DNA of 64,000 nt, taken from positions 2,177,501 through 2,241,500 of the forward strand of contig NC_091673.1 of the NCBI RefSeq assembly GCF_042453785.1. Reading direction: 5' to 3'. Both the position numbers and the translations under genes were made by a program. Shown piece after piece: positions 1,033 to 44,518 of the stretch. The notes beneath the pieces were generated by a model. That model had not been told where the DNA came from, ran no database searches, and saw nothing but the letters and a program-made list of their open reading frames with translations. The DNA is from Malus domestica (taxonomy: Eukaryota > Streptophyta > Magnoliopsida > Rosales > Rosaceae). The number at the start of each line of letters is the position of its first letter. Within the stretch, counting starts at the first letter, position 1.

Positions 1033-1565
1033 AATTTCAGATCAGTCGTTAGAAAGCGTTTGAACTTAATAAGAAGCTCCACAAGCTCTTGAATATTCAT
1101 TTGGCAAACCTATCAGCGGTAAAATTAAGCCTTCCAGTAACATGCTGTCAGTTCTCTATGAACAAACTTCTTTACTCCGAGAGAACCGTAGAGAAGATGA
1201 TTAAAGTCGGAAAATGGGCAAATCAAAGTAAGTAATAACCAAAAACATAACGAGCAAAAAAGGTATTCTGCAAAAGACACATGTTAAATCAGGGCAAACA
1301 GTAAAAAAGAAAATGAGATCTCATCACATACAAGTACAGAGCAGAAGCTGATGGAGGATAAGTTGGGGAAAGAGAAAGAGATGCAAGGGATCATTATAAT
1401 AAGCAGTTTTGGGGATAGCTCTTGAAATAATTTCGTGTTCTCCCCAAAATCTCCGTTCTTACAGATTTATGCAACTCATCTCACGCTTGCTCTCTCAACC
1501 AAATAAACGATTTGCTACTATGTGTGTTAAAATCCGCAAGAGGGGAAAGGAAAAGGGATAAACTT

Positions 1566-1676
1566 TAGGAAATTGAAGGAATGGGAGGGTTAGGAAAGAA
1601 ATTCGATCTCCAGAATTTGAGACCAAAAAAGGAAGTTACTTCTTTCCTACCCTTCCACTCCATAAACCTCCTCAAA
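1566..1676 (-). ncRNA. MIR482: MIR482 microRNA precursor
   Basis: On the minus strand this folds into a long hairpin. The 3' arm holds the probable mature 22-nt RNA at 1578-1599. It begins TCTTTCCTAACCC and ends CTCCCATTCC, which is the miR482 consensus: antisense to the codons for the P-loop GMGGVGK of NBS-LRR resistance proteins. The 5' arm (about 1639-1661) begins GGAGTGGAAGGG and pairs with it almost throughout. miR482 family members are 22-nt RNAs that target NLR mRNAs and can trigger phased siRNAs; that is family knowledge. A TATA box lies about 70 bp upstream (1740-1748). The plus-strand reading frame over this stretch has no support as a protein. Confidence 0.85.
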
Positions 1677-1739
1677 GCCTTCCTATTCCACCCCTCTTTT
1701 TCCATGGCTTTAGGGTTCGCCGATGTCGCTCACCCCTCC

Positions 1740-1748
1740 TTTATATAT
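1740..1748 (-). promoter_or_regulatory. TATA box of the MIR482 gene
   Basis: Reads ATATATAAA on the minus strand, just upstream of the hairpin, in the usual place for a Pol II pri-miRNA promoter. The transcript would start near 1710-1715. Confidence 0.6.
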
Positions 1749-2904: not shown

Positions 2905-3052
2905 GGGGTGTGATATCCACACACCCTATTTTACTTCTCACACACCCTTCTAATTTTCGACCGTCGGATCGGATGAATTGAAGAAGATCAACGGATAGAA
3001 ATTAACAAGGGTGTGTGAGAAGTAATTTGGGGTGTGTGGATAGCACACCCCC
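2905..3052. mobile_element. MITE, family A, copy 3
   Basis: The best-preserved copy, about 148 bp. Ends GGGGTGTGATATCCACACAC and its near-perfect inverse. The centre holds CGACCGTCGGATCGGATGAA. It folds into one long hairpin. Confidence 0.8.
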
Positions 3053-3667
3053 AAAAACAATTGTTCACTTATGTATTTACCCATAAATATGGGTAGGTTC
3101 AGTTTCAATCTGTTCGATTTAAATTTGTTCAGTTTTTGTTCGATTCGATTTTTTTTTAATTTGATTTTTTCCTGTTTGATTTCAATTTTTTCCTTTTGGT
3201 TCAGGTATATACATTTAATTTATCGACCTAAGAATGCAATTATGCTTGCCTTTTCAGGGATTACATGCATGAAAATGTGATAAAATTTTAGTGTGAAAAG
3301 GAAGTAGAAGATATTCTTAGCTTTTTACTTATTGATCTTCCCTGTCTAGGGTTTATAGTACATCAAATCTTGAATGCTGTCTCTTTTGCCTTCAGTAATT
3401 CTTTGTATAGTCTTTTGATTATGGGTGCAATGATTTTGATGGGTGGCATGGTGTCCACCATGTGATGTACCTGCTTATCCAAGAATGAAGAATCCATGAT
3501 CCATGAGCATGCTGCTCTGGCTACCAAAAATATTTGAAATAGGAAAATTGGCAAAGGTATCCGGAATAGAAAATGTGGTAATTAATTTCACACACATACA
3601 TATATATATATAAGTTCGGTTTGATTTGGTTCAATTTCCAAACCACTAAAATCGAAATCAAACCAAG
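3053..3667. other. Intergenic with GTTCGGTTTGATTT-type low-complexity tracts
   Basis: Contains imperfect repeats of TTCGATTT/GGTTTGATTT at 3100-3200 and 3615-3665. A 63-codon minus-strand frame at 3363-3554 looks faintly protein-like but matches no family I recognise and lacks splice context. Confidence 0.5.
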
Positions 3668-8060: not shown

Positions 8061-8549
8061 TTTCGATTTGGGTTCGATATACGGTTCGCTTTTTTGAAAC
8101 CACCCTTACAAGTTCGGGGTTGTAGGGCGACCACCGCTCGGTAATTAAAAATGTTTTCCAATAACAGACGTTATTTTAGACCAGTTTCTAATACATGGAA
8201 AGATCGTTGTTTCTATATTTCCGATTAGATCCCTTTTTTTTTTTTCCATATTTCCGATGGCCTCGGAAATTCCATGTCAAAATATTGCTGGATATACAGT
8301 TTGCAGCATAACATAAAATAAAACGAGAAACAATTTCAGGGAAGTGAAACGAAAATGATGCAAACTTAATCCATTTCATTTATGATGGAATCCAACATAT
8401 TTATAACTAATTAACAGAAAATAAAGGAAAAACAGAGGAAATTGAAAAGGAGAGGGTAAGAGAGATCTGACGACTTTACCAGCACCCCAAAACGCATAAA
8501 ACAGTGAGAATTATTTATTTAGAGAAAAGGTGGGGAAAAGAAGGAGGGA

Positions 8550-8640
8550 GAGGAAATCATGGGACTTAGTGGCATCGGTAGGAGAAGGACTCCAGATCAT
8601 CAGGTTTTCTCACCGAGCAACTAAGTCCTATAACTTCCTC
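8550..8640 (-). ncRNA. Divergent MIR482/2118-like hairpin
   Basis: A 91-nt inverted repeat of about 38 bp per arm with few mismatches and a short loop (around ACTCCAGATCATC). On the minus strand the 3' arm at 8562-8582 reads CCTACCGATGCC then ACTAAGTCC. It lines up without gaps to the miR2118/482 consensus (CCGAT.CCAC....TCC). Its complement translates as GLSGIGRR, close to the NLR P-loop. The 5' arm (GGACTTAGTTGCTCGG) pairs with it. A TATA box lies about 105 bp upstream on the same strand. No protein is supported here. Since the arms are near-inverse, plus-strand transcription cannot be excluded, but the TATA box favours minus. Confidence 0.65.
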
Positions 8641-8744
8641 AACCTCTTTCTCCTTTTCCCCTTCTCTCATATCATATTCTTCCCCTTTTTTTCTTATTCT
8701 TTCCTCACCAGACGACGAAAACAACGCTGGCCTCACTTTCTCCC

Positions 8745-8753
8745 ATTTATATA
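8745..8753 (-). promoter_or_regulatory. TATA box upstream of the 8.6-kb hairpin
   Basis: Minus strand TATATAAAT, with a GCCACGTCA element (ACGT core) about 20 bp further upstream. Confidence 0.55.
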
Positions 8754-44319: not shown

Positions 44320-44518
44320 GAAAAGGGATACTTTTCGGATCCTTTCCTTATAATCTAGCAAATCAGGAAATTCATGCTGTTGAAATTTGATCTAATGGTT
44401 AAAGTTATTATAACTTTTAAAGTTGATCCATGTTTGTAGCTGTTAAATTAAATTTTTACGATACAGATTCCCTGATTTGGTGGATTATGAGGAATGGATC
44501 CAAGGAGGATCCCTTTCC
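44320..44518. mobile_element. Mutator-like MITE with 9-bp duplication
   Basis: 199 bp flanked by CTCCAAAAT at 44311-44319 and 44519-44527. Arms GAAAAGGGAT...GGATCC.TTCCT.ATAATC..CAAATCAGG and inverse. No coding sequence. Confidence 0.85.

Follow-up and report, generated by a model that had tools for sequence, protein, structure and literature searches.

The window analysed here is a stretch of 64,000 nucleotides from apple (C13:2177501-2241500) that carries two hairpins of the miR482/2118 superfamily, both on the minus strand. The first, at 1541-1697, is the apple MIR482c gene, which is already known. Positions without a contig name refer to the window, and genome-wide searches to 651 Mb in 19 contigs. 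Published sequences and measurements are quoted from the accessible parts of PMC3446319, PMC6074755, PMC5328274, PMC11353999, PMC8453155, PMC8368212, PMC10875884, PMC8703471, PMC4791883, PMC6139297, PMC8098804 and PMC3542160. The gene comprises the following features:

1541..1697, minus strand: MIR482c precursor stem-loop, -70.9 kcal/mol over 157 nt (fold)
1578..1599, minus strand: mature miR482c-3p, 22 nt, TCTTTCCTAACCCTCCCATTCC, identical to pear MIR-482c
1639..1659, minus strand: predicted 21-nt star (5p), with a 2-nt 3' overhang on the fold
1741..1747, minus strand: TATATAA, likely TATA box, the sister gene miR482b has a TATA at the aligned position

The MIR482c gene and its duplex

An initial sequence-only reading had placed a MIR482 gene on the minus strand with its 22-mer at 1578-1599. 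Both proposals are borne out: the 22-mer has exactly the letters of pear MIR-482c (PMC6074755), it occurs nowhere else in the window even when three mismatches are allowed (0 expected), and the genome pattern search returned no other exact match. The minus strand of 1550-1690, whose fold had been suggested as a check, forms a strong hairpin (-59.5 kcal/mol, z -5.68; equalled by none of 200 shuffled sequences). The rules for plant MIRNA genes applied here, reportedly those of Axtell and Meyers 2018, ask for a stable hairpin of less than 300 nt, as found, and for a duplex whose 3' ends overhang by 2 nt and which has no more than 5 mismatches. On the fold just nucleotides 9 and 15 of the mature strand and nucleotide 6 of the star are unpaired, in line with the near-complete pairing of the arms seen earlier; the star ends were placed by the overhang rule, so that the mismatch count is the sole real test of the duplex. 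The star had been expected at about 1639-1661, which located the arm correctly, whereas the duplex taken off the fold ends at 1659 and is thus 2 nt shorter. The TATA box proposed upstream is present as the heptamer at 1741-1747, 65 nt above position 1676, and aligns with that of the sister gene; TATA-like heptamers are common in the window (77 + 71).

The Rfam model RF01911 matches 1541-1697 on the minus strand at 51.9 bits (E 3.8e-7), short of the 85 bits set as gathering score. The complement of the 22-mer translates as GMGGLGK, the P-loop codons by which the superfamily is recognized, and MIR482c is filed under the miR482/2118 superfamily, not under the RF01911 model.

We consider it very improbable that the plus strand is the active one, either as an antisense precursor or through a real product of the 91-aa ORF at 1581-1856. 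The plus strand does fold (-38.3 against -49.4 kcal/mol on the minus strand for the same 111 nt), is matched by RF01911 at 42.5 bits and carries the longest of the ORFs that overlap the hairpin; likewise, the relative at C16:2496569 (hairpin e below) scores higher on plus than on minus (47.5 against 42.9), contrary to its published strand. Yet at MIR482c both the fold and the Rfam score are stronger on the minus strand, the published letters and the aligned TATA are on this side, and the located published small RNAs of the cluster are all on minus. The plus-strand frame had also been called the only open one; it is the longest, but ORFs of 46 and 43 aa on the minus strand overlap the hairpin as well.

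A sister copy, miR482b, is found 11 kb off at C13:2167957-2168113 and is 85% identical over 157 nt, its mature strand differing by one base (T for A at nucleotide 10). Identity is high in the star arm (22/23), the mature strand (21/22) and the lower 3' stem (17/18), and lower in the loop (27/39) and between TATA and stem (43/80). Judged from this alignment, conserved arms with a diverged loop and flank are the conservation pattern expected of a MIRNA. As for miR482c, the RF01911 score (58.8 bits) lies under the gathering score of 85. The miR482b 5p predicted from the fold, AATGGAAGGGTAGGAAAGAAG, agrees in every letter with miRC5, a read published by Xia 2012, and the sister copy is therefore backed by sequenced small RNAs; both strands are printed there, the 5p under the name of miRNA and the 22-nt 3p as its star.

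MIR2118 and other elements of the window

The second hairpin of the window is MIR2118, with the following features:

8544..8646, minus strand: MIR2118 hairpin, Rfam RF04185 (MIR2118_2) 121.6 bits, above the gathering score of 120
8560..8581, minus strand: mature miR2118, 22 nt, CTACCGATGCCACTAAGTCCCA, identical to miRC3 of Xia 2012, in a duplex on the fold
8608..8628, minus strand: predicted 21-nt miR2118 star (fold)
8747..8753, minus strand: TATATAA upstream of MIR2118

The minus strand of 8525-8666 folds with z -7.49. The mature sequence is named miR2118a in the accessible part of the honey paper. The anatomy is that of the same superfamily as miR482c; unlike the GMGGLGK of miR482c, the complement of miR2118 reads, by eye, as GLSGIG in the P-loop frame. 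The sequence-only reading had described MIR482c without this context: the gene is not isolated but has clustered relatives.

We note three palindromic stretches that by eye are of one kind, probably MITEs, at 2907-3056, ~361-510 and ~1966-2115. The first of these has the strongest fold of the scanned part of C13 (-80.1 kcal/mol) and a match to mir-253 below the cut-off. An inverted-repeat-like element at 44323-44515 scores 50.5 for MIR7533 (cut-off 230) and 38.6 for MIR5380 (cut-off 150), and is perhaps MITE-like. Sub-gathering Rfam matches to MIR7533, MIR5380, MIR530, MIR161, MIR2670, mir-253 and mir-202 were judged to be chance or MITE-like palindromes and were set aside.

A cluster on chromosome 16 and relatives in the genome

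The region C16 ~2.490-2.503 Mb is partly collinear with the MIR482/2118 region of C13, and we take both chromosomes to be homeologous, given this partial collinearity and the known apple chromosome pairs. MIR2118 is kept at C16:2499746-2499852 (121 bits), where its star includes the sequence that Xia 2012 prints as the miRC3 star. For MIR482, C16 aligns to window 1338-1602 and then again from 1764 (remnant C16:2498102-2498396); window ~1603-1763 (~161 bp) is accordingly missing from C16. On this alignment the C16 MIR482 is a remnant that lacks loop, star arm, 5' basal stem and TATA, with a mature-like stretch kept at 17/22, such that one MIR482 homeolog has decayed by loss of the star arm and the TATA region.

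Between C16:2492950 and 2496950 lie five divergent hairpins (d, e, f, g and h), three of them within 620 bp (C16:2496331-2496950) and two within 400 bp (2492950-2493348); both tight groups are possibly polycistronic. Hairpin e holds miRC26 and hairpin h miRC25 of Xia 2012, both on minus. The same source places miRC25, miRC26 and miRC3 on the same old contig, and its Table 1 gives normalized reads of 24 for miRC25 and 15 for miRC26, from flower only. A peach 'miRC26' (PMC3542160) is a different sequence and was discarded. Hairpin g holds pear miRn9 together with its star, and hairpin f the star of pear miRn15 exactly and the miRNA with one difference, again on minus in both cases. For hairpin d no published read was matched, and a literature search with its predicted 3p gave no match.

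Alignment of nine superfamily hairpins (h omitted) yields a shared stem of 44 pairs, and 18 of these show at least one change on both sides. The duplex is 22/21 nt in eight of the nine folded hairpins and 21/25 in h. Among 36 genome candidates scored, a single one passes the RF01911 cut-off (C9:31688186-31688339, 90.3 bits); its 3p contains, by sequence comparison, the letters of pear MIR-482a. On C13, a hairpin resembling g is found at ~2161480-2161660, and a second stretch folds weakly.

Target sites in NLR genes

A whole-genome search with the antisense of miR482c at up to three mismatches gives 38 matches, against 12 for a reversed-pattern control. Of the 30 loci given for the 38 matches, 13 lie in open P-loop frames, two are the MIR482 hairpins, two are the arms of one inverted repeat on C12, and the remaining 13 are of another kind. 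The sequence-only reading had recognized NLR P-loop codons in the antisense, and the genome agrees: among these 30 loci, all 13 open-frame sites match PF00931 (NB-ARC), 12 of them above the cut-off and one (L027) just under it (22.4 against 23.5). Allen-type scores at the NLR sites range from 3.5 to 6 for miR482c and from 1.5 to 7 for miR482b. Nucleotide 10 of miR482c, which adjoins the expected cut, fails to pair in nine of the ten distinct NLR site sequences scored; over these ten, miR482b pairs better in six, equally in three and worse in one. The pairing of miR482c with NLR sites is only moderate. A search allowing wobble pairs was dropped (447 matches against 414 for the reversed control, those listed being mostly G-runs), and from a second 482-type pattern (49 matches against 19) just the places already found were used.

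The inverted repeat on C12 (C12:4619180-4619647, L013:1400-1867) has arms of 86 and 76 nt that are 93% complementary, are NB-ARC-like by eye and carry a P-loop site each. Its appearance is that of a hairpin that arose recently out of an NLR gene.

That MIR482c itself is a young inverted repeat or a fragment of an NLR gene, folding by chance and without a functional miRNA gene, is a rival explanation to which we give hardly any credence. The P-loop codons in the antisense speak for it, as does the existence of an NLR-like inverted repeat on C12 (C12:4619281 may be such a case), but it is at odds with arms that are kept between miR482b and miR482c more than loop and flanks, with a published miRNA of the same letters in pear, and with a stem shared by nine related hairpins whose pairs have changed on both sides.

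In apple buds, mdm-miR482c (MIMAT0026023) has been measured (PMC8703471). A study of apple roots, in its accessible part, reports expression of 'miR482c-known-3p', a degradome target of miR482c that is an RPM1 homolog with two cleavage sites, and phasiRNA phasing at an RPM1-like gene that begins at the miR482 cut. We infer that the letters of mdm-miR482c are those of pear MIR-482c, and that the miR482c of the root study is the 22-mer of the window.

The roles of DCL1, AGO1, RDR6 and DCL4 in this pathway are general knowledge. At this copy, transcription would start just below the TATA box at 1741-1747 and the transcript would fold into the hairpin, from which DCL1 would excise a 22/21-nt duplex with the extra base on the 22-nt 3p strand. 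With this strand as guide, AGO1 would bind NLR mRNAs at their P-loop codons and cleave or hold them; recruitment of RDR6 and DCL4 would then yield 21-nt phasiRNAs, and the NLR family would be damped. The hairpin, the 22/21 geometry on the fold, the conservation of the arms, the sequence match to a published miRNA and the NB-ARC sites are observed in this analysis, and the explanation as a whole (a MIR482c gene, a 22/21 duplex and damping of NLR genes via phasiRNAs) is the best one and, in our judgement, highly probable. The gene itself confirms known biology, namely a miRNA that restrains apple resistance genes.

Close-matching sites at loci without an NB-ARC match

A further set consists of 24 loci with close-matching sites for members of the cluster, at which NB-ARC was not found. 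Six of the 13 other loci of the miR482c search (two on C3, three on C7, one on C11) have a motif in common and reach scores of 3-4 with miR482c and 1-3 with miR482b, better than most NLR sites; a seventh, less similar site on C6 was excluded from this group and counted under 'other'. Between chromosomes these loci are similar over 28-55 nt round the site, partly beyond the 22-nt query. Site searches covered 482, 2118, e and g; by chance, at equal base use, ~0.005 matches per pattern are expected at up to one mismatch and 0.16 at up to two. For miR2118 there are 10 matches (two are hairpins) against 1 in the control. Hairpin e gives 17 matches (one self) against 12, no clear excess, its best sites being one with one mismatch and two with two mismatches. 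Hairpin g gives 15 (one self), three of its sites having one mismatch, against 143 in a control swamped by a repeat. From the non-self sites, best-matching ones and their close kin were chosen and fetched (7 of 8 for 2118, 5 of 16 for e, 6 of 14 for g), with scores of 2-2.5 for 2118, 0.5-4 for g and 2-6 for e. For miRC3, Xia 2012 lists a category-0 target at an alignment score of 2, the 'unknown protein' MDP0000485327; the C11 sites found here likewise have a score of 2.

A Pfam scan of 28 open frames through the sites, one or more for each of the 24 loci and the P-loop frame in 11 of the 24, found no NB-ARC at E <=1 and nothing above the cut-off; three weak, unrelated matches lie below it. 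Of the seven fetched miR2118 sites, none of which gave an NB-ARC match, two are P-loop-like by eye. Open frames of 30-104 codons cross each of the 24 sites. The pair C11:35.19 and C3:31.3 reads by eye as SILGVSGIGK and IPIVGVGGIGK in P-loop frames, and judging by these frames may represent decayed or divergent P-loop genes. The loci on C5 and at C11:38.1 have an upstream stretch in common by eye, which could be coding.

Splice-donor-like sequence, defined as a match of at least 6/8 to AGGTAAGT within 40 nt after the site, is found in 8 of 13 locus groups, formed from the 24 loci and represented by the group median, compared to 6.8% of random stretches (binomial p ~4e-7), the pattern having been counted after it was spotted by eye and the grouping of near-duplicates being our own. 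Local stretches show it in 20 of 240 cases, NLR coding sites in 1 of 13 and the seven other matches in none (0/7). Lowering the threshold to 5 leaves a weak contrast (9/13 against 30%), and five groups, including C11:2.77 and C11:38.1, fall below the threshold of 6. Sharing of the site alone between loci was not counted as evidence, because the loci were selected by that site. The lack of a partner arm was likewise set aside as weak evidence, with an ungapped count of 16/22 at real 482 hairpins and 11-15 at the 24 loci.

These sites suggest that the cluster might act as a trigger with two outputs: miR482b and miR482c would curb NLR genes, while miR482b/c, miR2118 and the flower-expressed divergent members would start 21-nt phasiRNAs from spliced non-coding transcripts, with the 22-nt site at the end of an exon just before the splice donor. 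In favour of this interpretation are the quality of the sites, the donor pattern, the two tight groups of hairpins on C16 and, for e and h, reads confined to flower; it is weakened by the selection of the sites, by the missing excess for e and by the chance that some loci code for protein. Its probability was set somewhat lower in view of the pair C11:35.19 and C3:31.3 with its P-loop-like frames, and we offer it tentatively, with more doubt than confidence. Named candidate target loci outside NLR genes are thereby supplied for the apple group: C3:2403730, C3:2416098, C7:33998921, C7:34039820, C7:34209800, C11:2767530, C11:35194040, C11:38100644, C5:28324685, C5:28356017, C7:26822152, C3:30861249 and C12:29857713. 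Among the papers listed by the literature searches, no title or abstract dealt with non-NLR sites of this kind in apple or with the C13/C16 cluster.

Comparison with known systems

With respect to mdm-miR482c and pear MIR-482c, the gene of the window has a 22-nt 3p identical to that of pear, and no difference was seen. The apple miRC26 and miRC25 and the pear miRn9 and miRn15 were published as apple- or pear-specific; here they are divergent superfamily members beside MIR2118, and several 'species-specific' miRNAs are thus re-filed as divergent members of one cluster. The comparative study of Pokhrel 2021 describes flax, where miR2118/482 triggers phasiRNAs from non-coding transcripts, and strawberry and rose, where the trigger is miR11308; the accessible part of its text contains neither 'apple' nor 'Malus'. 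That study also describes polycistronic trigger precursors, of which the closely packed hairpins in the two C16 groups are reminiscent. If the reading with two outputs is true, the cluster would serve the reproductive 21-nt phasiRNA pathway in the apple branch, where Rosoideae rely on another miRNA, miR11308.
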